Below, one piece after another: positions 1 to 16,565 of a stretch of 38,468 nucleotides of DNA; the stretch's first letter is position 1, and every line of letters begins with the position of its first letter. A program made the position numbers and the translations under genes. Source of the stretch: Ruminococcus sp. (GTDB lineage: Bacteria; Bacillota; Clostridia; Oscillospirales; Acutalibacteraceae). A model generated the notes under the pieces. It did not search any database. It was given only the letters and a program-made list of their open reading frames with translations, and was not told the DNA's origin. The stretch covers positions 1 to 38,468 of the forward strand of contig JAMPDR010000015.1 in the NCBI GenBank assembly GCA_023665555.1, in the 5' to 3' direction.

Positions 1-70
1 ACCTGTGGAAACGCAGGGACGCAAAGTCAAGGGCCTAACCCGTAATGATACGGCATGGCAGCCGATTGCC
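1..70 (+). promoter_or_regulatory. Cyclic di-GMP-I (GEMM-I) riboswitch, copy 1, 5' end cut by window edge
   Basis: The segment carries the class I c-di-GMP aptamer hallmarks in order: a GAAA-capped hairpin, the GGGACGCAAAG core, the GGCCTAACCCG segment, a second hairpin, GGCAGCCG, and a TTGCC closing strand at 66-70. The matching GGCAA strand of P1 should lie just before base 1, so a few bases are missing. It is nearly identical to copy 2 at 266-348. The GAAA-capped stem shows compensatory change between copies (CTGTG/CGCAG here, CTGCG/CGTAG there), which supports a real RNA fold. Confidence 0.88.
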
Positions 71-97
71 CTTCGGAGTTTTCCGATTGTATTAGTT

Positions 98-176
98 GGA
101 CGCTTTATTGTGCGTTGGACTGCAGTTTGACTTTGCATGTTCCAAAAAGCACAGATATGAGAGCGTTCTTTTTTTT
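98..176 (+). terminator. Intrinsic terminator downstream of riboswitch copy 1
   Basis: GGACGCT (98-104) pairs with AGCGTTC (162-168) and TGTGC (109-113) with GCACA (149-153). Further inner pairing (GGA with TCC, TGCA with TGCA) makes a long imperfect hairpin. Eight T residues follow at 169-176. It starts 27 bases after the aptamer closes, the usual place for the expression platform of a transcription-terminating riboswitch. Whether c-di-GMP promotes or prevents termination cannot be told from sequence alone. Confidence 0.6.
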
Positions 177-192
177 GTTTGTCAATTTCAGT

Positions 193-214
193 AAAGGAGG
201 AGTTAAAAGTGTAG
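193..214 (+). other. Consensus ribosome binding site followed by a GTG-TAG start-stop
   Basis: A full AAAGGAGG (193-200) is followed after 8 bases by GTG (209-211) and at once by TAG (212-214). Spacing and strength are those of a real initiation site, but it encodes a single codon. It sits between the terminator of riboswitch 1 and riboswitch 2. It may be the remnant of a lost gene whose start region was displaced by duplication of the riboswitch, or a minimal start-stop site. No longer ORF uses this site. Confidence 0.4.
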
Positions 215-265
215 AAATTACCAACCACTTAGGAAGCTGTTGATTTAAGCAACGCTTTCAAAAAC

Positions 266-348
266 GGCAAACCTGCGGAAACGTAGGGACGCAAAGTCAA
301 GGGCCTAACCCGTTACATATAATATCTACGGTATGGCAGCCGATTGCC
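266..348 (+). promoter_or_regulatory. Cyclic di-GMP-I (GEMM-I) riboswitch, copy 2
   Basis: This is a complete class I aptamer. P1 is formed by GGCAA (266-270) and TTGCC (344-348). A GAAA-capped hairpin, GGGACGCAAAG, GGCCTAACCCG and GGCAGCCG follow in order. It differs from copy 1 mainly in a longer loop in the third helix. The P1-region G that is changed to A in cAMP-GMP-type variants appears to be G here, so c-di-GMP is the expected ligand. Only 39 bases separate it from the ATG at 388, and no T-tract terminator lies between. A small hairpin (CTTTCTT with AAGAAAG, about 348-373) overlaps the weak purine-rich stretch before the start, so control may be translational. Confidence 0.92.
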
Positions 349-387
349 TTTCTTAAAAAAACTATCAAGAAAGTAAGTGATTTATTT

Positions 388-3300
388 ATGAAAAAACGAT
401 TATTGGCAATCTTATTATGCATGATCATGATGTTGCAAACAATGGCAATTTCGTCAGCAGCAATTGATTCAACAGGAACACAAACAGATCCGACACCGGA
501 CAAATACAGCGTATCAGCAGCGGAAAACACAGAATATTTACAAGAAATCGAACCACAGTCAATTGAAGACATAATCAATTTTGAAATTCAGATTCAGTTG
601 GAATTCCCGGTATCCGAGGATGGTGTGAACTTGCTTAAAGATGCATTCTCAGCAACTTTGCACAACGCTGATTCGGAAGAAAGCATAAGCGTAAACACAA
701 AAGAAGTTTCAGACCGCACAATCATTTGCACAGCTGAAAACGTTCAGCCGGGTGAATACACATTGAAGCTTGAAGCTGAATATTTCTTCCAGAACTATGA
801 GCAGAAAGTCACAGTTGAAGAAGGCGCTAAAACAACAGTTGTTCTCAGCGACAGTTATTCTTCATTCAGAGGTGACGGAAAAACATCACCGGGTGTTTTC
901 GCTCTTGGCGATCTCAATGATGACGGCATGATCGACAGCACAGACGGCGACCTTCTTATTGAATATGCAGGTCAGAGCAAAACAAAGACCGAGTATTCAC
1001 AAGACGGAACCGCTCAGACGGTTGACAATGATGAGTTTAATTCAATTTATGACTTGAATTTCGACGGCGAACTTAATGTAGGTGACCTTGGAATTCTCGT
1101 TAACAACATGGACACAGAAAAACGTGAGGCAAAGCCGATCAAAACAGTTTTGCCATCAGCAGTAACAATAGATACAGTAAATTCAGCAGTGGCTGAAAGC
1201 AGCGGCAGAGCACTTGACACAATCATGGAAGATTATGAAGAGAACATAGTGCTTCAGCCGGAAAACGCTCAGCAGGAAATTTCAGAAGCAAACCCTGTTG
1301 AAATCGAAATGAATTTTGCAGCAACGGTTCCCGTTGAAGGTATCGTAATTTCAGCTCCGGCCGAAAGCGGACCTAAGAGCGGTACAGTAGCAGTTGAAGT
1401 TATTGATGAGGACGATCCGAACGGAGCAACAAAATTCATCGTTGCAACAATCGTTGATGAAGAAGAACAGGCTGCAACTCCGGCACCTGTTATGAAACGT
1501 GCAAAAGCAGCTGCAAGAACTGCTTCGGTACAGACAACATCAACAGCAACCGCAATCAGAAAAGCCGATGGCAGCATCGTTGTTGACCTTGGCAAACAGG
1601 TTGCAATCAAAAAGGTAACAATCGTAGTAACAGCAACAGCAACTTCAGCAAAACTTACTGAAATTGCAAAAGTTGAGTTCCTCAACGATATGGAAACAAG
1701 AATTCCTGAACCTGAAATGAACATTCCTCAGAACGTTCAGGCAGCAGGCGCAGGCGACAGCTTCACCGTTTCATGGGATGCAGAATCAAATGTAACAGGC
1801 TATCAGGTAGCAATTTCTGCAATAGACAAGAACGGTAAAGCATATGATGAAAGATTTTATAATGCAGGTGTAAACAGCATTAAAATTCAGAACTTTAAGG
1901 GCGGTGTTAAGGATAAGGTTACACCTCTCTGGACATACAAAATCAGAGTTAAGTCAGTCAACGGCGAATGGTCAAGTGCATTTAGCCAGACAGTAAGCCA
2001 CTATCAGCTTGCTGCAAGTGCACCCGATGCACCCGATAACCTTAAACTCAACGGCAAATATCGTCAGATCGATGCATCTTGGAAAGATATGCCCGGCACT
2101 GAAAAATATTCTCTTGAATACAGAGAAGTAGGAACTGAAGAGTTTACAGCAGTTCACGAAATTCTTTCAAACTCTTACAGCATCACAGGCCTTAAAGACG
2201 CAACTTCATATGAGATTCGCGTTTACGGCTGGAACTCAGATTCAAACGGCAATGCAAGACGCGGCGGTAATTCACTTCCGGCAATCGGCAAAACAACCGT
2301 TGAAATTCCGAAGTTCTCAAAATATGCAATGATCACAAGAGATGAAATTGCAAGCGTAAGCTGCTTTGCAACAAAGAATCCCGGCGGCCCCGGTGGATTT
2401 GATACCACTCAATATGAAGATGGTATTTTCAGACCGGAATATGTTATTGACGGCGATTATTCAACATTTATGCACACCAATCAGGGCTATCCTCATGGTG
2501 TAACAGTTGAATTTACAAGTGAACAGACAATCAAAGAAATTTACATGACCAACCGTCTTGAAGATATGTACAGAGATGGAACAGGCTACTCAGGAGTTTA
2601 TATTGATGCCTGGGACGCAGACGGAAACAAGGTCAGAGTTGAGCGTCCGGCTATCACTGTTCAGGCTCTCAACCCAACAGTTAAAAACACCATGAAGTTC
2701 ACACTTGCAACTCCGATTAAAGCTAAGAAACTTACATTCGGTTTGAGCAAATACGGTGCAGGCGTTGTTACAATTTCGGAAATCAACTTCTTCAAATATG
2801 ATTCACTTGAGGACGAAGTAAATGCTCTTTATGCAGATGACATGCACATCACTCTTAAGGATAACGTAACAGAAGAGATGATCAGTGCTCTTGAACTTTG
2901 CGCAAGTATCAAAGACCCGAACTTCGATGAATATCATCCGAAAAAGCAACTTCTTGAATCTGAACTTGCATATGCAAGAGAGCTTCTCACAAATAAAAAC
3001 ACAATCAGTGATGTTGTCAATGTAAAAGCAGACATCACAAAGAACGGAACAAATAACTGCGGATTCAGCAGCGGCTTGAGCGGACTTCAGCCTCTCGGTT
3101 ATGTTGCAGCTTCTGATTCGAAAGTAAACGTTTATGTTGGTCAGAAAGGCAAAAATGTTGGTGACACAGTTTCTGTAAGACTCGTGTTCACACAGTATCA
3201 TGCAGAATCATCAGCATGGATCTCAGGCGAAATTGCACTTCACCACGGTAAGAACGAAATCACCATTCCGCAGGTATCAAACCTTGGTTTTGAAAAGGGC

Positions 3301-5937
3301 GGTTCACTCTACATTGTCCACACAAACCAAAATGACATCACGGCAAATCCTGTCAGCGTTCGTGTAAGCGGCGCAACAAAAATTCCGATGCTCGATCTTC
3401 ACAGAACGATCGGTAATGACAGATTTGAAATAAACGAAGCACAATGGAAAGAAAGCATCAGAAAATATGTACAAGAGCTTACCTCCTATTCATTGGCTCT
3501 TCAATCAAACCATGCTTCTCACCAGGAAGAGGTTGGCGGATTCGAATACGGCAACGGTTCAAACTGCTTCCTCAATGCAACAGAAATAAGCCTTGACAAC
3601 GTCCTTATTTCTGTTCCTGCCAGCCAGATCCTTGCAGGTCTTGGCGGTGCAAACACAGACGTTGAAACACTCACAAACAGAATGTATGACAATGCTGTTT
3701 CGATCAATCAGATGCTTGAGTCGTTCTATAAGCAGAGAGGCTTTAATCCTGCTGCTGTAAACGGTCTTCACGGTATCCCGTCAGCAAGATTCAACATTCG
3801 CTATCAGAGAATGTTTGCAGGTGCATTCATGTATGCCGGCGGCTCTCATCTTGGCATTGAATGGGGCTCAGTTCCGGGTGTTGCAAACTGCACTCCGATC
3901 GTTACAGATGAAAACGGAAAACGTATCGGCGGTAAGACATTCGGTTGGGGCATTGCTCACGAACTTGGACACAACGCTGATGCAAGCGGTCTGACAATCG
4001 CAGAAGTTACCAACAACATTTGGTCACAGTTTGAAAAAACTTGGGATACAGCAGAAACATCAAGAATTCCTTATGCTGAAGTTTACAAACATGTAACATC
4101 AGGTTCAAACTCAAAACCCTCAAATGTTTTTGCTCAGCTTGGTATGTTCTGGCAGCTTCACCTTGCATATGACAGCAACTATGCAAACTACAACTACTAT
4201 AAAGACGGTTTCACAACTGAAAACTATGAAAACCTTCTTGCAAACGAATTCTTCGCACGCTATTATGCAATCAGAAGAGATTCTTCAAAGGCACCGGCAA
4301 CTGCAATCAAAATTGCAAACGGAACAGTAGAGCAGAACATCATGCGTGTTGCATGTGCAGCCGCTCAGAAAGACCTCACAGATTTCTTCCGTGCATGGGG
4401 CTACAGTGTTGACGCTGTAACAGCAGCATACGCAAGCCAGTTCCCGAAGGAAGAAAGACAGATTCAGTATCTCAGCGATGCCGCACGTGAGTACACTCTT
4501 GCAAACGGTTCAGCAATGACATCAACATCAGTTGAAGCAAGTCTTGTTCAGGGCAAAGGCAAAGACGGCAGAAAAGTTACCCTTTCAATCAGCCTTCCCG
4601 AAGAAGCAAACATGAGCGCAGTTCTCGGTTATGAAATTATCAGAAACGGCAAACCTGTTGCATTTGTAACTCCTGCGGTTGATGAAAACGGCGAATATGC
4701 AGACGTAACAGTTTACGAAGACGTTGTTCAAACAGTAAACAACAGAATGATGAACTACGAAGTTGTGGCTTATGATAAGTATCTCAACACAACAGAGTGC
4801 AATAAGCTTGACAGCATTAAGATTCGTCACGAAGGCGTTTTGACAACAGAAAACTGGACAGTTACAACAAACGCAACTTCAGTTGACGGTGTGCTTGCAG
4901 TTTATGATGGAACAAAGGTTGTTGAAGGCAATGTTTACACAGACGTTACAACAGGCGAAAGCGTAACTTACTCAAAGACAATGGACATCAAGTATCTCGA
5001 TAAGGATACAGGCGAAACACTTCACACTTACAGTGCAGCTGTTCTTTCGGCAAACGGTGACACCGAAGTTGGCTTTGAAGGTATTGCAACAAGCACTGCT
5101 CAGATCGTATACGATCTCGGCGGTAAGCAGGAAGTCACTGCTCTTGCATTCATGGGCGGCTCAACAATCCCGTGGAAGTTCATGCTTGAATACAGTGATA
5201 ACGGTGGTGTAAGCTACACAAGAATCACAGGCTTTGAAATCGGAACAACTGATGAAGGCTATCCGGTACTTTACTTCTCAGCAGGCCAGAACATTAAATC
5301 TTATAAAGCAACACACATCAGAATTTCTTCTCCGAACGGAGTTAAGACAATCGGCATCAAAGATATTAAACTTCTCTCACCTTCAGGCGATAACGTTGAT
5401 ATCGGTGTTTCAACAATCGACCCTGTAACAGGCGTTGAAACATGGGACACTGACAGCGCAATCGGTATTCTCTCAAATGATTATGTTCTTGATGCAGATG
5501 CAGGTTCTGTTATCCCGGCAGGCTCATTCATCGTAACCGGTAAATACACAGGTAACGCAGCTTACAACGTTGTTAAGCTTTACAGTGAAAACTACAAGCT
5601 TTATGACGAAAGCACAGAAAACAAACTCGACGGACTTGTTAACGGCTATCAGGCAATCTTTGCTGATATGCCTGAGGCAGGAAGCATCGTGAATGTTAGA
5701 GATGGTTCATGGATCTATTGGCTTGAGCCGCTCAGCGGAGAAAATGCAGGCAAGTTCGGATTACCGGGCGCAGGCGAAGACGGCAGTGATGTTGTTGTTG
5801 AACTTCCCACAAAGGTTTATGCAGAACTTTATCGTGTTGATAACGCTCTCACTCTTGCAGGCGAAAGACTTGTCAGTGACTCATTTGTTGTTGACGTTCC
5901 CGCAACTCTTCCCATGATCGAATTAACCAACAATTGA
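388..5937 (+). CDS. Secreted M60-like zinc metallopeptidase with N-terminal dockerin, FN3 and F5/8C-type domains
   Basis: This 1849-residue exported protein probably cleaves glycoprotein or mucin-type substrates. A signal peptide (MKKRLLAILLCMIMM...) comes first. A dockerin-like pair of calcium loops follows, D175-D183 (DLNDDGMID) and D222-D233 (DLNFDGELNVGD). Two fibronectin III-like domains lie near 440-540 and 545-640, then a discoidin/F5-8C-like domain near 645-800. The peptidase region has HELGH at 1191-1195 and a downstream Glu at 1206, fitting the M60 HExxH-x(8-28)-E pattern. The C-terminal third holds another FN3-like and a discoidin-like domain, and there is no LPxTG or membrane anchor. 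An N-terminal rather than C-terminal dockerin is unusual. The ATG lies 39 bases after a c-di-GMP-I riboswitch, and no strong Shine-Dalgarno is visible. M60 assignment is firm; substrate and domain borders are inference. Confidence 0.88.
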   Translation: MKKRLLAILLCMIMMLQTMAISSAAIDSTGTQTDPTPDKYSVSAAENTEYLQEIEPQSIEDIINFEIQIQLEFPVSEDGVNLLKDAFSATLHNADSEESISVNTKEVSDRTIICTAENVQPGEYTLKLEAEYFFQNYEQKVTVEEGAKTTVVLSDSYSSFRGDGKTSPGVFALGDLNDDGMIDSTDGDLLIEYAGQSKTKTEYSQDGTAQTVDNDEFNSIYDLNFDGELNVGDLGILVNNMDTEKREAKPIKTVLPSAVTIDTVNSAVAESSGRALDTIMEDYEENIVLQPENAQQEISEANPVEIEMNFAATVPVEGIVISAPAESGPKSGTVAVEVIDEDDPNGATKFIVATIVDEEEQAATPAPVMKRAKAAARTASVQTTSTATAIRKADGSIVVDLGKQVAIKKVTIVVTATATSAKLTEIAKVEFLNDMETRIPEPEMNIPQNVQAAGAGDSFTVSWDAESNVTGYQVAISAIDKNGKAYDERFYNAGVNSIKIQNFKGGVKDKVTPLWTYKIRVKSVNGEWSSAFSQTVSHYQLAASAPDAPDNLKLNGKYRQIDASWKDMPGTEKYSLEYREVGTEEFTAVHEILSNSYSITGLKDATSYEIRVYGWNSDSNGNARRGGNSLPAIGKTTVEIPKFSKYAMITRDEIASVSCFATKNPGGPGGFDTTQYEDGIFRPEYVIDGDYSTFMHTNQGYPHGVTVEFTSEQTIKEIYMTNRLEDMYRDGTGYSGVYIDAWDADGNKVRVERPAITVQALNPTVKNTMKFTLATPIKAKKLTFGLSKYGAGVVTISEINFFKYDSLEDEVNALYADDMHITLKDNVTEEMISALELCASIKDPNFDEYHPKKQLLESELAYARELLTNKNTISDVVNVKADITKNGTNNCGFSSGLSGLQPLGYVAASDSKVNVYVGQKGKNVGDTVSVRLVFTQYHAESSAWISGEIALHHGKNEITIPQVSNLGFEKGGSLYIVHTNQNDITANPVSVRVSGATKIPMLDLHRTIGNDRFEINEAQWKESIRKYVQELTSYSLALQSNHASHQEEVGGFEYGNGSNCFLNATEISLDNVLISVPASQILAGLGGANTDVETLTNRMYDNAVSINQMLESFYKQRGFNPAAVNGLHGIPSARFNIRYQRMFAGAFMYAGGSHLGIEWGSVPGVANCTPIVTDENGKRIGGKTFGWGIAHELGHNADASGLTIAEVTNNIWSQFEKTWDTAETSRIPYAEVYKHVTSGSNSKPSNVFAQLGMFWQLHLAYDSNYANYNYYKDGFTTENYENLLANEFFARYYAIRRDSSKAPATAIKIANGTVEQNIMRVACAAAQKDLTDFFRAWGYSVDAVTAAYASQFPKEERQIQYLSDAAREYTLANGSAMTSTSVEASLVQGKGKDGRKVTLSISLPEEANMSAVLGYEIIRNGKPVAFVTPAVDENGEYADVTVYEDVVQTVNNRMMNYEVVAYDKYLNTTECNKLDSIKIRHEGVLTTENWTVTTNATSVDGVLAVYDGTKVVEGNVYTDVTTGESVTYSKTMDIKYLDKDTGETLHTYSAAVLSANGDTEVGFEGIATSTAQIVYDLGGKQEVTALAFMGGSTIPWKFMLEYSDNGGVSYTRITGFEIGTTDEGYPVLYFSAGQNIKSYKATHIRISSPNGVKTIGIKDIKLLSPSGDNVDIGVSTIDPVTGVETWDTDSAIGILSNDYVLDADAGSVIPAGSFIVTGKYTGNAAYNVVKLYSENYKLYDESTENKLDGLVNGYQAIFADMPEAGSIVNVRDGSWIYWLEPLSGENAGKFGLPGAGEDGSDVVVELPTKVYAELYRVDNALTLAGERLVSDSFVVDVPATLPMIELTNN

Positions 5938-6009: not shown

Positions 6010-6912
6010 ATGAAAAAGTTTAGAATTATATCATTATTATTATCTTTAATTATAATGCTTGGAATAATTGCTCCCGGTGCTCTTGCAGCACAGGAAACAG
6101 AAGATGTATTATCAAATGCAGCTCCATATGTGTTCAGAAGTGAAATTGTGAACGAAGAAAACAATGCCGTTAAGGTATGGCTTGAACTTGATCCGGCTGT
6201 TGCGGAAAACGTTGCATCATATCAGATTGCACTTCAGCTTCAGAATGTGAACAATGAGGCCGCACTTGGCAGAGAAATGACTCTTGATTTTGATGAATCA
6301 ATCAAGAGCGCAAAAATTAAAGCAACCAAATACGACAAAGATACTCAGACACTCAGAGTTTACGTGGCAGATAAAGAAAACCTTGTTCAGTCTATTAAAA
6401 CTGCCGATAACGATATCACAAATATTCTTCCCATCGGTACAGTTACCGTTGAAAAGATGAGCGCAGCTCTCAATCCGTTCAAGGTTGTTCTTTTCGGTAA
6501 TGATGGTGAACTTGCTGTTGCAGACCTTGGCTGTAATGTAAAAAAAGCAGCTGATGTTTACGGAAAAGACAGTGAAGAATTTGTGATTCCTGTTGACGGA
6601 ACTGTTTATGGTGTTATTGAAATTGTTGAACCCGAACCAACAACTGAGCCGACTACAGAGCCGACCACTGAACCCACAACAGAGCCTACAACTGAACCGA
6701 CCACAGAACCTACTACCGAACCCACAAGCAAACCGACCACAGAACCGACAAGCGAGAACCCAACCGTTCCCGATAAGGGCGATGATGATCAGCATTGCTC
6801 ATGCAATTGCCACAAAACAGGTTTTGCAGGCTTCATCTATAAGATTACAAGATTCTTCTGGAAGATATTCAAAACAAACAGATTCTGTGCTTGCGGTGTT
6901 GCACATTATTAA
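6010..6912 (+). CDS. Secreted beta-rich protein with Pro-Thr-Glu repeat linker and Cys/His C-terminal motif
   Basis: This 300-residue protein has an N-terminal signal peptide (cleavage likely after GALAA, about residue 27). A beta-rich domain spans about 35-205, with alternating strands around SYQIALQLQN and TLRVYVADKE. It resembles cohesin-like or Ig-like sandwiches, but I cannot confirm a family. A linker of ten PTTE-type tetrapeptides (residues 210-249) follows. The tail has C263, C265, C267, H268, a short amphipathic aromatic helix (FAGFIYKITRFFWKIF), then C293, C295, H299 and Y300. Similar C-terminal tails recur in Clostridia surface proteins as far as I recall; their role is unknown to me, and membrane or cell-wall association is a guess. 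It follows the dockerin peptidase by 72 bases and probably shares its riboswitch-controlled transcript. Confidence 0.75.
   Translation: MKKFRIISLLLSLIIMLGIIAPGALAAQETEDVLSNAAPYVFRSEIVNEENNAVKVWLELDPAVAENVASYQIALQLQNVNNEAALGREMTLDFDESIKSAKIKATKYDKDTQTLRVYVADKENLVQSIKTADNDITNILPIGTVTVEKMSAALNPFKVVLFGNDGELAVADLGCNVKKAADVYGKDSEEFVIPVDGTVYGVIEIVEPEPTTEPTTEPTTEPTTEPTTEPTTEPTTEPTSKPTTEPTSENPTVPDKGDDDQHCSCNCHKTGFAGFIYKITRFFWKIFKTNRFCACGVAHY
6637..6756 (+). repeat. Tandem 12-bp coding repeat, ten units
   Basis: Ten consecutive 12-base units encode PTTE (eight units), PTSK and PTSE. The repeats form the Pro/Thr-rich linker between the folded domain and the C-terminal Cys/His motif of the protein at 6010. 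Such linkers are typical of extracellular proteins and prone to unit-number change by slippage. Confidence 0.9.
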
Positions 6913-7249: not shown

Positions 7250-9316
7250 GTGGAAAATAAAACAGAAACAAAACAAACTATATTGATTGCTGACGATTCT
7301 GAAATCAATCGTTCAATTCTTGCTGATATGCTCGGCAATGAATATGAAATTCTTGAAGCTGAAAACGGAATTCAGACGATTCAACTTATAGAAAACAATT
7401 TGCAAACGCTGTCGCTTGTATTGCTTGATATTGTTATGCCTGAAATGAATGGCTTCGGTGTTCTTGATGAGATGAACGAAAAACATTATATTGAAAATAT
7501 TCCCGTTATCATGATATCAGCCGAAAGCAGTCCTGAACTTATAGAAAAAGCTTATGAGTTGGGTGTAACCGATTTTATCAGCCGACCGTTTGATGCAATG
7601 ATTGTTCATCATCGAGTGGTTAACACTTTGCTGCTTTATGCAAAGCAAAAAAGACTTACACATCTTGTTGCAAAGCAGATATATGAAAAGGAAAAGCAAA
7701 GCAGCTTGATGATTGAGATTCTCAGTCAGATTGTTGAATTCAGAAACGGTGAAAGCGGCAATCATATTCGCCGCGTGCGAGCGTTCACAAAACTTCTGCT
7801 TGAACATCTCAGCAGAACTTCCGATAAATATAACTTTTCTCATAACCAGATTGAAATGATTTCAACGGCATCTGCCCTTCATGATATCGGAAAAATCTCG
7901 ATTGATGAAAAGATACTGAATAAGCCGGGTAAGTTGACTGATGAGGAATTTGAAAAAATCAAGATGCATCCGGTGATTGCCGACAGAATGCTTGAAGAAC
8001 TGGCTGCTTATGATAACGGTTCAATGTTAGTTGAGGTTGCACGTGAAATATGCCGATGGCATCATGAACGCTATGACGGCAAAGGTTATCCGGACGGCTT
8101 GAAAGGCGATGAGATTCCGATTTCGGCTCAGATAGTTGCACTTGCTGATGTTTATGACGCTCTGACAGACAACCGTGTTTATAAAAAGGCGATTGCTCAT
8201 GATGAAGCCATCAGAATGATTGTTGACGGAGAATGCGGAACGTTTAATCCCGATTTAATCAAATGTCTTGTTGAAATTGAGGATACTCTCGCGCATCAGC
8301 TTGAGGAGCCTGCAAAATCGGTTTCGGAAAAGGACATCATGCAAAACGTTGTTGATGAGTTTCTCAGCCATGAGGATTTGAAAGCATCCACAAGAACTTT
8401 CCGGTTGCTTGAAGATGAGCGAATGAAGCATGAATTCTTCGCGGTTTTAACAAACGAGGTTCAGTTTGAATACATTCCGTCACCGCCGTGCCTTAAACTG
8501 ACACAGTTTGGTGCAAAAAAATTAATGCTTCCGGAATATATTGACAACCCGTTGCATAATGAAAAGGTTTTGTCGGTGATGTCTGATAAGAGCATACAAA
8601 GACTCTCTGATGCACTCAGCAAGACGACAGCTGAAAAAAACGAGGTGGTTGTTGACTGCCGACTTAATGTGAACGGTGAAAAACGATGGTTCAGATTTGT
8701 TGCACGGACATTGTGGTCGGGTGATGATTTGCTGATAAATAACGGTGTAATAGGAAAGATCATTGATATTCATGATTCCGTAACCAAACTTAACAACCTT
8801 AAACGCACCGCATCAAGCGATACTCTCACAGGATTACTCAATCACGCAGGTGCAAAAGAGCATATACTCGAAAAAATATCGGCACACCCCGACAGCAAAT
8901 ATGCACTTGCGATTTTCGATCTTGACCGGTTCAAGGAGGCCAATGATAAATACGGACACATGTTTGGTGACAAGGTGCTTTGCCACACGGCGCAAAAACT
9001 GCGCAACACACTGCGTACCGATGATATCACGGCAAGGGTCGGCGGCGATGAGTTCTTGATTTTTATCGAGTATAAAGGAGATCCCGACCCGATTATACAA
9101 AGGGTATTCTCTTCGTTGAATGGGCAGTATGAAGATTTCCCGGTTTCACTGAGTATGGGAATTGCAACAACGGAAAATATAGGCTTTGAATATGACGATT
9201 TGTTCAAGGCGGCGGACAAGGCTTTGTACTTTGTGAAAAGAAATAAGCGGGGAGATTATCGATTTTATGATGATACGATGAATGAAATGTTTTCGGTTAT
9301 TTCAGATATTGATTGA
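7250..9316 (+). CDS. Response regulator with HD-GYP phosphodiesterase and GGDEF cyclase domains
   Basis: This cytoplasmic 688-residue c-di-GMP turnover protein begins with a receiver domain (about 10-130) with phospho-acceptor D60 in LLDIVMPEMNG. An HD-GYP domain follows with H211-D212 (HDIGK) and HHERYDGKGYP at 271-281, the residues needed for c-di-GMP hydrolysis. A PAS-like region near 380-530 leads into a GGDEF domain with an intact GGDEF at 598-602 and an inhibitory-site RxxD (RTDD, 589-592) five residues before it. Both opposing activities therefore look intact, and phosphorylation probably sets the balance. The start is GTG, preceded by AAAGGGG with good spacing. The Hpt and hybrid kinase genes just downstream are its likely phosphate donors. 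The closest known targets are the two c-di-GMP riboswitches 7 kb upstream. Confidence 0.92.
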   Translation: MENKTETKQTILIADDSEINRSILADMLGNEYEILEAENGIQTIQLIENNLQTLSLVLLDIVMPEMNGFGVLDEMNEKHYIENIPVIMISAESSPELIEKAYELGVTDFISRPFDAMIVHHRVVNTLLLYAKQKRLTHLVAKQIYEKEKQSSLMIEILSQIVEFRNGESGNHIRRVRAFTKLLLEHLSRTSDKYNFSHNQIEMISTASALHDIGKISIDEKILNKPGKLTDEEFEKIKMHPVIADRMLEELAAYDNGSMLVEVAREICRWHHERYDGKGYPDGLKGDEIPISAQIVALADVYDALTDNRVYKKAIAHDEAIRMIVDGECGTFNPDLIKCLVEIEDTLAHQLEEPAKSVSEKDIMQNVVDEFLSHEDLKASTRTFRLLEDERMKHEFFAVLTNEVQFEYIPSPPCLKLTQFGAKKLMLPEYIDNPLHNEKVLSVMSDKSIQRLSDALSKTTAEKNEVVVDCRLNVNGEKRWFRFVARTLWSGDDLLINNGVIGKIIDIHDSVTKLNNLKRTASSDTLTGLLNHAGAKEHILEKISAHPDSKYALAIFDLDRFKEANDKYGHMFGDKVLCHTAQKLRNTLRTDDITARVGGDEFLIFIEYKGDPDPIIQRVFSSLNGQYEDFPVSLSMGIATTENIGFEYDDLFKAADKALYFVKRNKRGDYRFYDDTMNEMFSVISDID

Positions 9317-9421: not shown

Positions 9422-9781
9422 ATGACTTTAAAAGAATGTTACGAGATTTTCAGCGGAGATTATGACGGTGTTGTTGGCCGCATGAGAAGCGAAGCACTTG
9501 TTAAAAAATTTATTTTTAAGTTTGAAAATGACCCGAATTATGGTATACTTAAATCAGCACTTGATGCGCGAAACCGAGAAGAGGCATTCAGGGCGGCACA
9601 TACCATTAAAGGAGTATGTCAGAATCTCGGCTTTACAAAGCTTCAGGAATCATCAAGTCTGTTAACTCAGCATTTGAGAGTAAGTTTGAGTGATGATTGC
9701 TTTGCATTAATGAATCAAGTAACAGAAGACTATGAAAAACTTATCAGTGCAATATCAACATTTAGAAATTCGGGTGAGTGA
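9422..9781 (+). CDS. Histidine phosphotransfer (Hpt) domain protein
   Basis: This 119-residue single-domain Hpt protein contains AAHTIKGVCQNLGF, the Hpt signature, with the phosphorylatable histidine at H60. It should relay phosphate between a receiver domain of the hybrid kinase downstream and the receiver of the REC-HD-GYP-GGDEF protein upstream. Its stop codon lies 4 bases before the chosen start of the kinase gene, so the two are probably co-translated. A purine-rich GAAAGG precedes the ATG at a long spacing. The 105-base gap upstream has only small hairpins (for example CCTTGC with GCAAGG) and an AT-rich tract, and no clear terminator. Confidence 0.88.
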   Translation: MTLKECYEIFSGDYDGVVGRMRSEALVKKFIFKFENDPNYGILKSALDARNREEAFRAAHTIKGVCQNLGFTKLQESSSLLTQHLRVSLSDDCFALMNQVTEDYEKLISAISTFRNSGE

Positions 9782-9785
9782 CAGG

Positions 9786-12368
9786 ATGAAAAAAATACAA
9801 AAGAGTGAAAAGTCGCGTTTCTTAAGAATAGGAATCACAACGGTAACTTTGCTGTGTGTGTTTATTTTCTGCTTTCTGGTGTTCTTCATGAACAACAAAA
9901 GTGTTGAAACCGTCAGACAAGCGGGAAGATTCTACATGCAGGGAATGAGTGAACGTATTTCCATGCACTTTCAGTCGATTATCAAGCTTCGTCTTGGTCA
10001 GGTTGATACTCTCAAAGAGGTTTCAAAGGTAATGCCTAACCTTACGGAGGATGAACTCAAGGCTCAGATCAGTCATTACGCAACATCCAGAGGCTTTGAT
10101 CATCTTGGAATCATTGGAAAAGACGGCACAATCGAAATGATTTACGGCGAACAAATCAACATTGTTGACAAGGATCCGTTTATTGAATCAATGGAGAAAA
10201 AAGAAAGAAAGGCAGCAGTCGGTCAGACAGATGACGGTGATGATATAATTCTCCTCGGAGCATCCACCGGTGCTTACACTATGTCTGACGGAAGCCGTTC
10301 AGTTGCCATTGTTGCGGCATTGCCACTCTCAACCCTGCAGGGAACGCTTTCGCTTGAGATAAGCAATAGTCAGGTCTATTCATTTATCATAAGAAAAGAC
10401 GGCTCTTTTGTTATTAAGACATCAGATGTTGAGGTGGATAACTATTTTGACCGTGTTCACGATCTTTATAAAGGTGATGAAATTTCGGTTGAACAATATA
10501 TAGAAGAACTCAACACAGCAATGGATGAAGAACAGTCCTACACAAGTGAAATGATAATTGATGGAACGCCGAGGCAGATCTATTGCGCAAAACTTGAAAA
10601 TTCTGAGTGGTATCTGATAACTTTTATGCCATATGGCGATCTGAATTCAACCATTAGTACACTTAGTACGCAGTGGTTCATTTCGGCAATCATAGCATGT
10701 CTTTCGATATTGATTCTGCTCATGATAATTATCATTGCATATTCAAAAATGATGTCAAGACAAATGCATAAAATTGAAGAGGCTCGCAGCATTGCTGAGG
10801 CTGCTCAGCAAGAGGCTGAACGTTCAAATAAAGCTAAAAGCGAATTTTTATCCAATGTCAGCCATGATATACGAACCCCGATGAATGCGATTGTGGGTAT
10901 GACAGAGATTGCAACTGCCAATATAGAGGACGTTGAACGTGTTGAAAATTGTTTGAAAAAAATCACGGCTTCGGGTAAGCAGCTTCTTGGACTTATCAAT
11001 AATGTTCTTGATATGTCAAAAATCGAGAACGGTAAAATGACACTCACGGTTGAGCAGGTATCTCTTCGTGAATTGATGGACAGCGTTGTTAGCGTGGTTC
11101 AGCCGCAGATCAAAATTAAAAATCAAAACTTCGATGTTCATATCAGAAACATAACTTCCGAAGTTGTTTGCTGCGATTGTGTAAGGCTCAACCAGGTTAT
11201 TATGAATTTGCTTTCCAATGCAGTTAAATTTACTCCTGACGGTGGCTCGATATGTATTCAGCTTGATGAATCTGACTCTGAAAAGGGCGATGATTTTGTT
11301 CGTGTTCATCTTATGGTCAAAGACAGCGGAATCGGTATGACAGACGAGTTCCTGCAAAAGATTTTTGAGTCATTTGTTCGTGCTGACAGTGCCAGAGTTC
11401 ATCGGACAGAGGGAACGGGACTCGGAATGGCAATAACAAAATATATTGTTGACGCAATGGACGGTCAAATTGAAATTGACAGTGTACCCGGTGTCGGAAG
11501 TCAGTTTGATATTTACTTTGATTTTGAGCGCGGTGATGTTACTGAGTCCGAATTTATCCTGCCAAACTGGAATGTTCTTGTGGTTGATGATGACCGCTTG
11601 CTTTGTGACAGTGTTGTTTCCGACCTTTGTGCAATGGGTGTGAACGCTCAGTGGACGCTGGACGGTGAAAGTGCGGTTGAAATGATTGACAAGCATCACA
11701 AATTGAGTAATGACTATCAAATTGTCCTCATGGATTACAAGCTGCCCGGCATTGATGGCATTGAAACATCAAGAAGAATCCATGATTTGCTTGGTGCAGA
11801 TGTTCCGATTCTGTTGATTTCGGCATACGATTGGAGCGACATTGAAAAAGAGGCGAGAGAAGCAGGCATTTCAAACTTCATCTCAAAGCCGCTGTTTAAG
11901 TCAACGTTGTTCTATACCCTTAATAAATATGTTGATATGTCACAGCAGACGGAAGCAATAGCAGAAAATGACGGCGAAGCGCTGAGAGGATGTAAAGTTC
12001 TTCTTGCCGAGGATAATGAACTCAACAGAGAGATTGCTTATGAATTGTTATCGCAAAGCGGACTTGAACTTGATATGGCTGAAAACGGAAAAATCTGCCT
12101 TGAGAAATTTGTCGAATCCGAAGTGGGATATTATGATGCAATTTTGATGGATATCAGAATGCCGGAAATGACAGGCTATGAAGCAACAAGGGCAATAAGA
12201 GCGCTTGAACGAGAGGACGGAAAAACAATTCCGATTGTTGCAATGACGGCTGATGCTTTTGCCGAGGATGTTAAAAAGTGTCTTGAATGCGGAATGAATG
12301 CTCACGTTTCAAAGCCGATCGACCCAAGAAAGATTTTTGCTGTTTTGGAGAAATATATTAACAAGTAA
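9786..12368 (+). CDS. Hybrid sensor histidine kinase with two receiver domains
   Basis: The start at 9786 is chosen because GAGTGACAGG precedes it and an 18-codon longer form would overlap the Hpt gene. The 860-residue protein has a transmembrane helix near 12-36, an extracellular Cache-like sensor region (about 40-290), a second helix near 297-320, and then a HisKA domain with H360 in SHDIRTPMNA. The ATPase domain has NLLSNAVKFTP, KDSGIGM and GTGLGMAI. Two receivers follow, with acceptors D650 (LMDYKLPGIDG) and D789 (LMDIRMPEMTG). Two receivers plus a separate Hpt partner fit a multi-step phosphorelay. The ligand is unknown. The gene ends just before a strong hairpin at 12375. Confidence 0.9.
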   Translation: MKKIQKSEKSRFLRIGITTVTLLCVFIFCFLVFFMNNKSVETVRQAGRFYMQGMSERISMHFQSIIKLRLGQVDTLKEVSKVMPNLTEDELKAQISHYATSRGFDHLGIIGKDGTIEMIYGEQINIVDKDPFIESMEKKERKAAVGQTDDGDDIILLGASTGAYTMSDGSRSVAIVAALPLSTLQGTLSLEISNSQVYSFIIRKDGSFVIKTSDVEVDNYFDRVHDLYKGDEISVEQYIEELNTAMDEEQSYTSEMIIDGTPRQIYCAKLENSEWYLITFMPYGDLNSTISTLSTQWFISAIIACLSILILLMIIIIAYSKMMSRQMHKIEEARSIAEAAQQEAERSNKAKSEFLSNVSHDIRTPMNAIVGMTEIATANIEDVERVENCLKKITASGKQLLGLINNVLDMSKIENGKMTLTVEQVSLRELMDSVVSVVQPQIKIKNQNFDVHIRNITSEVVCCDCVRLNQVIMNLLSNAVKFTPDGGSICIQLDESDSEKGDDFVRVHLMVKDSGIGMTDEFLQKIFESFVRADSARVHRTEGTGLGMAITKYIVDAMDGQIEIDSVPGVGSQFDIYFDFERGDVTESEFILPNWNVLVVDDDRLLCDSVVSDLCAMGVNAQWTLDGESAVEMIDKHHKLSNDYQIVLMDYKLPGIDGIETSRRIHDLLGADVPILLISAYDWSDIEKEAREAGISNFISKPLFKSTLFYTLNKYVDMSQQTEAIAENDGEALRGCKVLLAEDNELNREIAYELLSQSGLELDMAENGKICLEKFVESEVGYYDAILMDIRMPEMTGYEATRAIRALEREDGKTIPIVAMTADAFAEDVKKCLECGMNAHVSKPIDPRKIFAVLEKYINK

Positions 12369-15432: not shown

Positions 15433-15475
15433 AAAGAATCGACGCTTATTTTTGCGAAGGTGTCGATTCTTTTCT
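15433..15475 (+). terminator. Intrinsic terminator after the M16C gene
   Basis: AAAGAATCGAC (15433-15443) pairs perfectly with GTCGATTCTTT (15462-15472), and T-rich sequence follows. The hairpin starts six bases after the stop codon. Confidence 0.8.
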
Positions 15476-15511
15476 TGGAATATTTTTACTTTATAAATTT
15501 CAGATTTTGTA

Positions 15512-15540
15512 TTGCTTTTGGATATACATTTGACTATAAT
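15512..15540 (+). promoter_or_regulatory. Promoter of the toxin-antitoxin pair
   Basis: TTGCTT (15512-15517) and TATAAT (15535-15540) are spaced by 17 bases, and the antitoxin ATG follows 22 bases after the -10. The short leader is typical of TA operons that the antitoxin represses by binding its own promoter. Confidence 0.7.
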
Positions 15541-15561
15541 ATAAATAGAGGTGATATAATT

Positions 15562-15864
15562 ATGGCATCAAAAACAGCAAATATATTGGCTCGTGTTGAG
15601 CCTGAAGTAAAGGAAGAAGCAGAAAAAATAATGAATCAATTGGGAATTCCTGCTTCTGTGGTTATCAATATGCTATATAAGCAAATAATCATGACGAGGA
15701 GTATACCTTTTTCTTTGTCTGTTCCTAAACAGCCAGTTTCAAGAGATGAAATGAGCGATGAAGTTTTTAACAGTATAATACAAAGAGGATTATCACAAGC
15801 AAAGAACGATCAATCCCAATTGGCTTCTGAGGTGTTTTCTCAATTGCGTCAGGAGTTGCTTTAA
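15562..15864 (+). CDS. RelB/DinJ-family antitoxin
   Basis: This 100-residue protein has an N-terminal ribbon-helix-helix-like segment (ASKTANILARVEPEVKEEAEKIMNQLGIPASVVINMLYKQI), typical of RelB/DinJ antitoxins that bind DNA and neutralise a partner toxin. The start at 15562 is chosen because AGAGGTGAT precedes it. A longer in-frame extension upstream would cross the promoter and reach back into the preceding terminator. Its stop codon is directly followed by the toxin ATG. The C-terminal half (DEVFNSIIQRGLSQAKN...) should wrap the toxin. Confidence 0.88.
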   Translation: MASKTANILARVEPEVKEEAEKIMNQLGIPASVVINMLYKQIIMTRSIPFSLSVPKQPVSRDEMSDEVFNSIIQRGLSQAKNDQSQLASEVFSQLRQELL

Positions 15865-16203
15865 ATGAAATATACCGTCAAAATGGCACCGCAGGCAAAA
15901 GATCAGATGAGAGAAATCATAAGCTATGTTTCGTATCAGCTACAGTCGCCGGACACAGCTGTTAAATTGTTTGATATTTTTGAAAGAAAAATAGATTCTC
16001 TCAGTGAACTTCCAAATCGTATTGCACTGACTGAAGATATGCCGTGGCATGATTACGGTGTTAGAAAAATGCTTGTGAAAAATTACTTCATTTATTTTTG
16101 GATTGATGAACAGCAAAAAATTGTGCATGTAATATCCATCATGTACAGCAAAAGGAATCAAAGAGAACATTTGTCAGAATTGAACATAGTGATAGAAACG
16201 TAG
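15865..16203 (+). CDS. RelE/ParE-superfamily toxin
   Basis: This 112-residue basic protein has the ParE-type pattern: an N-terminal strand (KYTVKMAPQAKDQMREIISYVSYQL), two helices, then LVKNYFIYFWIDEQQKIVHVISIMYSKRNQ. It starts with zero spacing after the antitoxin stop, using an AGGAG inside the antitoxin gene, so the two are translationally coupled. The family includes ribosome-dependent mRNA nucleases (RelE) and gyrase inhibitors (ParE). The C-terminal sequence looks closer to ParE, but the target cannot be decided from sequence alone. A terminator follows immediately. Confidence 0.85.
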   Translation: MKYTVKMAPQAKDQMREIISYVSYQLQSPDTAVKLFDIFERKIDSLSELPNRIALTEDMPWHDYGVRKMLVKNYFIYFWIDEQQKIVHVISIMYSKRNQREHLSELNIVIET

Positions 16204-16289: not shown

Positions 16290-16565
16290 AAACATTAGAA
16301 GTCGGCAGTTAAGCCGCTTTATATTAAAAGTGTTGATGGGAAAAAAGTTTCATCATGTTTTTTCAGAGAGTTGTCGGCAGGTGTAAGACAGCAGAGCAGG
16401 TGAAATATAACTCGTCCCGGAACTTTCAGACTGAGAAACATTGATTAGGTTTGAACGGGTTCTCCCGTTATAGAGATTCACATTGATAGATGTGAATGAG
16501 TGGGTGTTATCACCAAAAAAGAGTGGTACCGCGGAGAATTACAGATATCTTCGTCTCTTTTACAC
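16290..16565 (+). promoter_or_regulatory. T-box leader, tRNA-Leu specific (CUC specifier)
   Basis: The T-box signature GAGTGGTACCGCGG is at 16521-16534. Its TGGT would pair with an ACCA tRNA end, agreeing with the A73 discriminator of tRNA-Leu. Upstream, Stem I shows AGAGAGTTG (about 16365) and GGTGTAAG, and the specifier region reads GAAATATAACTCGTCCCGG, with CTC at 16411-16413 as a Leu codon followed by a purine. The 3' part holds the competing terminator (AAAAGAG with CTCTTTT, CGGAGA with TCTTCG). Uncharged tRNA-Leu should stabilise the antiterminator and switch on leuA-ilvBN. The leader fills most of the 449-base gap before leuA. Confidence 0.93.

Follow-up and report, generated by a model that had tools for sequence, protein, structure and literature searches.

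Tandem class I aptamers upstream of an M60 peptidase gene

The stretch of DNA analysed here (the window, 38,468 nucleotides (nt)) comes from a Ruminococcus sp. genome of 2.6 Mb in 120 contigs (98.3% complete), and its first base is also the first base of contig C27 (GCA_023665555.1, JAMPDR010000015.1). At this end, on the forward strand, lie two aptamers of the class I riboswitch for cyclic di-guanosine monophosphate (c-di-GMP), followed by a gene encoding an M60 metallopeptidase. Both aptamers exceeded the gathering score (35 bits) of the Rfam c-di-GMP-I model (RF01051): copy 1 (1-73), truncated at its 5′ end, scored 56.2 bits (E 1.6e-8, model positions 16-87), and copy 2 (256-351), which is complete, scored 72.9 bits (E 1.4e-12). 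Because the contig starts at window base 1, copy 1 lacks the 5′ strand of stem P1 (model positions 1-15), and any promoter also falls outside the window. An earlier note on this DNA had proposed two class I aptamers 195 bases apart; as judged by the Rfam model the tandem is confirmed, while the gap between the two matches measured 182-185 nt.

A second doublet was found on contig C81 of the same genome, where both copies are complete (RF01051, 71.1 and 71.6 bits), bringing the genome total to four recognised c-di-GMP-I aptamers in two doublets. The promoter of the C81 doublet resembles the consensus (TTGACA, 16 nt, TATAAT), and the gene that follows encodes a BspA-like LRR_5 protein (186 bits). 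The window and C81 leaders are paralogous, near-identical across copy 1 and its terminator and diverged in the spacer, and the break at the start of C27 may stem from this near-repeat. The earlier note had also claimed compensatory stem changes. For the window pair this held no more than loosely, the differences in stem P2 being one-sided (G-C/G-U and U-G/C-G). When the window and C81 doublets were aligned with the aptamer of a distant metagenome-assembled genome, G425, over a partial structure of 15 pairs, four of the 15 showed double-sided changes, and pairing was kept in 70 of 70 cells across the five sequences, with the P1 pairs invariant. The motif GGCAAACC places a G at the position that we take to be the contact selecting c-di-GMP over cyclic GMP-AMP; this G is present in window copy 2 and in both C81 copies, and the corresponding base of window copy 1 lies beyond the contig.

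The M60 gene (388-5937, forward strand) encodes 1849 amino acids (aa), with fn3 and F5/8 type C domains and a dockerin-like repeat pair (residues 173-240). Its Peptidase_M60 match scored 46.0 bits against a Pfam cut-off of 25.8, with the HELGH motif at residue 1191, and the domain matched solved chains that include the glycopeptidases ZmpA, ZmpC and BcM60 (PDB 6xsx, 6xsz, 9pl8). Thus the M60 part of the proposed dockerin-bearing target stood firmly, whereas the dockerin part was weak: Dockerin_1 scored 19.6 bits, short of the cut-off of 22.9, when the whole protein was searched, and exceeded it with 27.2 bits when the search was confined to a 72-aa slice. The protein may be an enzyme that cleaves glycoproteins, whether on the cell surface or in mucus. 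In a literature search judged by title among the matches listed, no M60 protein under a c-di-GMP riboswitch was found, and none was found for dockerin either.

Four further genes follow on the forward strand. They encode a 300-aa protein with a signal-peptide-like start, TEPTTEP repeats and a Cys-rich end (6010-6912, 72 nt behind the M60 gene), a 688-aa protein with REC, HD-GYP and GGDEF domains (7250-9316), an Hpt phosphotransfer protein (9422-9781) and, at 9732-12368, a hybrid histidine kinase carrying two receiver stretches, the last three assigned by Pfam. A cohesin in the 300-aa protein, as partner for the dockerin, was considered and gained no support: no Pfam family scored above its cut-off and no PDB chain matched up to E 10. 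G425 carries a cassette of the same composition (M60, 300-aa protein, REC-HD-GYP-GGDEF, Hpt and hybrid kinase) at 40-59% identity, in which the start of the M60 gene lies beyond the contig. The sole class I aptamer found in G425 sits directly behind the kinase gene (L127 2191-2278), before SipW-like and TasA/camelysin-like genes, an order in which direct control of a matrix protein by c-di-GMP would be possible.

Terminator and antiterminator at the first aptamer

The T-tract terminator that had been claimed after copy 1 was found as a long hairpin (98-168) followed by eight T residues (169-176), with a predicted free energy of -25.0 kcal/mol for the whole element (98-176, forward strand); the paralogous terminator at C81 has a value of -22.7 kcal/mol. 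A simpler pattern scan limited to loops of up to 8 overlooks this large hairpin. On the forward strand of this leader that scan gave two 5-pair candidates, at 73-86 and at 335-348 (within aptamer 2, with the tail TTTCTTAAAA), and its 14 candidates in 12.6 kb compare with 10.4 expected.

A strand of the aptamer core, GCAAAGUCAA (21-30), can form 10 Watson-Crick pairs with UUGACUUUGC (127-136), which lies within the terminator hairpin, so that the two strands constitute a candidate antiterminator. When the platform was dinucleotide-shuffled 1000 times, 4 of the shuffles gave a helix as good, and the 9-bp counterpart at C81 was equalled by 16 of 1000. A similar design is present in G425, where the core strand GCAAAGUCA and the platform strand UGACUUUGC form 9 bp (equalled by 30 of 1000 shuffles). 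A helix between core and platform was also seen at copy 1 of two more doublets, from another genus: in G371 it has 11 bp and was reached by 0 of 200 shuffles, and in G053 C29 it is weaker, with 8 bp, reached by 9% of 200 shuffles.

Ensemble folding of the intact C81 leader served to model the switching, and the presence of ligand was mimicked by forcing P1, P2 and part of P3. In the free ensemble the antiterminator formed with a probability of 0.45-0.71 per pair and the base stem of the terminator with 0.13-0.29. Forcing the aptamer reduced the antiterminator to 0 and raised the base stem to 0.82-1.0 in eight of its nine pairs (0.44 in the ninth), with the middle stem at 0.88-1.0; antiterminator and aptamer were thus mutually exclusive in the computation. 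The cost of adopting the aptamer fold was 2.7 kcal/mol at full length and 3.8-4.5 kcal/mol at two shorter transcript lengths. Because the forced aptamer removes the antiterminator, ligand-induced termination, and hence an OFF switch, is predicted at C81. At G425 the terminator base stem went from 0.66-0.67 in the free state to 0.98-1.0 with the aptamer forced. Taken together, the folding calculations give good support to a model in which copy 1 would act as a transcriptional OFF switch, the terminator being opposed by an antiterminator that competes with the aptamer.

The predicted logic resembles that of the Cd1 riboswitch of C. difficile, in which aptamer and terminator can coexist, the antiterminator competes with the aptamer and the output is OFF (PMC9262584). 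It differs in the strands used: the antiterminator here takes the core strand 21-30, whereas for Cd1 strands T and A are described, with A pairing to the 5′ strand P. Like ZmpI of C. difficile, a metalloprotease behind a class I OFF riboswitch (PMC6200980), the M60 protease would, under OFF control, be shut down at high c-di-GMP.

The second aptamer and doublets across the family

Copy 2 differs from copy 1 in its expression platform. The main terminator scan was empty over the 260 nt following copy 2 in both the window and C81, in agreement with the claim that a terminator is absent there. A hairpin without a T-tract, CUUUCUU...AAGAAAG (348-373), stands before the Shine-Dalgarno sequence of the M60 gene, with free-state pairing of 0.49-0.90 in the window and 0.10-0.18 at C81. 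Another, GGAAGC...GCUUUC (232-260), lies directly before aptamer 2 and is paired at 0.96-0.98 and 0.79-0.83, respectively. In addition, CACUUA (226-231) is a candidate to pair with UAAGUG (374-379) over the Shine-Dalgarno sequence; this 6-bp complementarity is near chance, the helix is possible at both loci, and its probability rose from 0.19 to 0.30 (window) and from 0.11 to 0.33 (C81) when the aptamer was forced. An anti-Shine-Dalgarno pairing that would form in alternation with the aptamer core, UUAGG/CCUAA, measures 5 bp in the window and 7 bp at C81; with an ensemble probability of 0.00-0.01 it was dropped.

The arrangement was surveyed in 398 genomes drawn from the family, with up to 10 candidates scored per genome under strict filters. 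Class I aptamers above the cut-off occurred in 64 of the 398 genomes, amounting to at least 130 matches; 115 of 130 were read for flanking terminators and 15 were left out. Neighbouring pairs within 500 nt numbered 15 in eight genomes and, as one of them joins two doublets across a short gene, correspond to 14 doublets. Under a plain rule (free energy of -8 or lower and a T-tract within 120 nt of the aptamer), a terminator was assigned to 10 of the 14 first copies, to 6 of the 14 second copies and to 61 of the 87 single aptamers, one single being followed by N bases and counted as terminator-less.

When the position of the T-tract was judged against the next aptamer or gene start, seven of the 14 doublets, in four genomes and three genera, had a terminator at copy 1 and none at copy 2 before the gene (two in G000, three in G053 and one each in G371 and G399). 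For two of these, both on G053 C28, a hairpin with T residues just past the predicted gene start was set aside, and the G399 doublet is followed by no close same-strand gene. Terminators after both copies were present in two doublets (G053 C22, G252), after copy 2 only in one (G264, whose copy 1 T-tract in the plain-rule count lies at aptamer 2) and after neither copy in four (three in G093, one in G178). Nine genes behind doublets were scanned, and these include LRR_5, transglutaminase-like, Cna_B, flagellar rod, prepilin peptidase and GGDEF proteins. By eye, second copies in genera g21 and g98 (L037, L039, L040, L041) appear to sit inside a long outer helix, approximately AAGAAC.CCAAU with AUUGG.GUUCUU.

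We consider it likely that the class I doublet gates the M60 gene, with an OFF switch at copy 1, a second layer that we infer at copy 2, and the ligand level set by the downstream enzyme. Without ligand, the core of copy 1 would pair with the strand inside the terminator and the transcript would read through; on binding c-di-GMP, aptamer 1 would fold, the terminator would form and the transcript would end, so that the gene would be OFF in the cell. Transcripts that escape would then meet aptamer 2, which lacks a terminator and lies beside the ribosome site, and a post-termination layer would act there, most simply on translation initiation and in either direction. The ligand would be set by the REC-HD-GYP-GGDEF protein, which has domains for both synthesis and breakdown and probably answers to the neighbouring Hpt protein and hybrid kinase.

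Several results weigh against this reading. Window copy 1 is truncated and the switching was computed on its C81 paralog; the two are close duplicates and not independent. The free state of G425 is already mostly terminator (0.66), which makes the size of the switch uncertain. An antiterminator that pairs with the aptamer core was rejected as a rule for the family: of 76 aptamers followed by a terminator no more than 110 nt away, 12 had an outstanding helix (the longest helix being reached by at most 5% of 200 shuffles), and several of these use the 3′ strand of P1. The homologous enzyme of G425 does not match the pattern GG[DE]EF. Lastly, when aptamer 2 was forced, the cost of opening the ribosome site moved by -1.4 to +1.3 kcal/mol, its sign being inconsistent over 42 sequence cuts. 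Since the opening energy does not track aptamer 2, a translational second stage is without computed support; translational switching by copy 2, pursued by ensemble folding and opening energies over these cuts, is not claimed, and translational control by this copy may be regarded as possible. The earlier proposal of transcriptional control at copy 1 and translational control at copy 2 is accordingly upheld in its first half by the terminator and antiterminator and not in its second; as a whole, two-stage control is a plausible and reasonable reading of the layout, with the second stage unproven.

The inconsistent effect on the ribosome site would suit an ordinary doublet in which copy 1 does everything and copy 2, as a duplicate, retains neither its terminator nor its switching, as would the missing terminator at copy 2 of both loci and the abundance of class I tandems (347 doublets and 12 triplets, classed as pseudo-cooperative; PMC9481103). 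However, aptamer 2 is high-scoring at both loci (72.9 and 71.6 bits) with stem changes that preserve pairing, and the layout with a terminator after copy 1 only recurs in half of the family doublets, in three genera. We regard this explanation as rather unlikely. A different possibility is that the two copies are opposed, copy 1 being OFF and copy 2 ON through folding of P1 that frees the early coding region or the Shine-Dalgarno sequence, which would produce a band-pass response to c-di-GMP. In the window, P1 of aptamer 2 is mostly open in the free fold (0.05), the minimum-energy fold pairs its 3′ strand with the early coding region, and at the shortest 3′ end the bound state was easier to open in six of seven cuts (down to -1.4). 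The shortest cuts at C81, in contrast, gave -0.3 to +1.2, longer 3′ ends gave mixed signs at both loci, and published descriptions of the C. difficile class I riboswitches give them as off switches, RNA-seq having shown one up-regulated gene (PMC6200980). Opposed switches therefore seem quite improbable.

The spacer between the copy 1 terminator and aptamer 2 contains a Shine-Dalgarno sequence, AAGGAGG (194-200), and a start-stop, GTG-TAG (209-214; whole element 194-214, forward strand). Its C81 counterpart (L005 2536-2556, minus strand) has AAGGAGG, 8 nt and ATG-TAG, with 18 of 21 bases equal to the window and the same 8-nt spacing from Shine-Dalgarno sequence to start. Such an element arose in 0.045% (window) and 0.02% (C81) of 20000 shuffles, or about 3% with a loose Shine-Dalgarno definition, figures that apply to an element defined after it had been noticed and to two loci that are not independent. 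The simplest reading, towards which we lean and which is compatible with a gating doublet, is that of a relic gene start: a leader resembling that of the G425 sipW gene would have been placed before a second riboswitch leader, with the coding part lost. In G425 an aptamer and a terminator are followed at the matching place by the AAGGAGG-bearing AAGGAGGGGUUAAAAUU and the gene for a SipW-like signal peptidase, where the window has AAGGAGGAGUUAAAA-GUG-UAG, and the spacer of G053 C22 contains AGGAGG with a 7-codon open reading frame. Against a mere relic, the Shine-Dalgarno sequence, the 8-nt spacing and the start-stop are conserved at both loci, and the A/G change in the start still gives a start codon while the following bases diverge; two related loci are, however, weak evidence of selection. 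A functional start-stop seems less likely; regulatory roles have been reported as possible for bacterial start-stops (PMC11955535, citing work in E. coli). With a ribosome modelled on the start-stop, the main ribosome site was not freed at either locus (mean unpaired 0.25-0.36).

The putative signal enzyme and the place of the doublet among known riboswitches

GGDEF (117 bits) and HD_5 each have a single match in the genome, both on the protein encoded at 7250-9316, 1.3 kb downstream of the M60 gene, which carries the motifs GGDEF, RxxD, HDIGK and HHERYDGKGYP. EAL gave no match in the genome, and neither did PilZ, in searches for receptors that did not extend to MshEN and other families. The REC-HD-GYP-GGDEF protein alone was recognised here, by its domains, as a likely maker of c-di-GMP.

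Within the genus (34 genomes), c-di-GMP-I exceeded the cut-off in one genome, the present one; HD_5 was found in one and EAL in two, this genome not among the latter. GGDEF exceeded the cut-off in three (six at E 0.001), the other two matches being one that covers the first 62 positions at 37 bits and one borderline at the cut-off. By these counts only this genome combines a riboswitch above the cut-off with a full-length GGDEF match. One more member of the genus has a sub-threshold c-di-GMP-I match of 30 bits (L049; G029:C8:34355-34454) alongside a partial match to GGDEF.

Outside the genus, G053, G180 and G371 each have one GGDEF match and a full-length homologue of the enzyme (49-54% identity), together with 9, 2 and 2 aptamers, respectively; in the genus of G053, seven of 41 genomes have class I aptamers. 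Counted by hand from the survey tables, class I aptamers occurred in 4 of 231 genomes with no GGDEF match, in 14 of 41 with one and in 46 of 126 with more. Some genomes for which no riboswitch was listed, G404 and G408 among them, have a full-length homologue too, so that enzyme and riboswitch need not occur together. Synteny was uninformative on gain or loss of the cassette: two of the 33 other genus genomes have a near full-length homologue of the M16C peptidase (49-50% identity), and none of eight other window genes tried matches in their flanks of about 1.5 kb. Elsewhere in the window, a RelB-like/ParE-like toxin-antitoxin pair (15460-16203) lies between the M16C peptidase gene and leuA, and a T-box leader (16324-16561, 114.8 bits) precedes leuA and branched-chain amino acid genes.

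Like known c-di-GMP-I tandems, the window doublet places two class I aptamers before one gene, with a terminator after the first. In such tandems first copies are expected to act on transcription and second copies at either level, and transglutaminase-like genes are named behind c-di-GMP-I doublets in Bacillota (PMC12452182); transglutaminase-like targets are likewise found in G053 and G371. Unlike the pseudo-cooperative c-di-GMP-I doublets of PMC9481103, as described in the available part, the window doublet has a second copy without a terminator, an M60 target and a start-stop between the copies. In that same part, tandems combining two mechanisms are given for S-adenosylmethionine (SAM) classes alone, including same-class SAM-II doublets with mixed platforms. 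The SAM-II/SAM-V and mixed SAM-II tandems resemble the present case in that the first aptamer has a terminator and the second adjoins the ribosome site; they differ in ligand and class (PMC9481103), and here it is the layout that suggests translational control by copy 2. Dual control of transcription and translation by a single class I riboswitch is reported for Bc1 of B. thuringiensis, which, unlike the two aptamers here, is one riboswitch with two terminators (PMC11218506).

The doublet thus varies an arrangement that is well known: its target is uncommon, and the signalling context recognised with it is unusually small. What the present analysis adds is the mixed layout in seven of 14 doublets, the strong Shine-Dalgarno sequence and start-stop in both spacers and the single GGDEF/HD_5 protein near the M60 gene. 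A stronger version, in which one enzyme and RNA alone would form a closed c-di-GMP circuit whose sole outputs are two mixed-platform doublets over two surface proteins, with a ribosome parked on the start-stop in the second stage, appears improbable to us. Networks of c-di-GMP can hold many enzymes and receptors, as in C. difficile 630 with 37 proteins of putative or shown c-di-GMP activity (PMC6200980), and are then hard to dissect. With one recognised GGDEF/HD-GYP protein and four aptamers, the path from signal to surface protein in this Ruminococcus would be testable with few parts, and the recurrence of doublets with a terminator after the first copy raises the question of what role a terminator-less class I aptamer plays beside a ribosome site.

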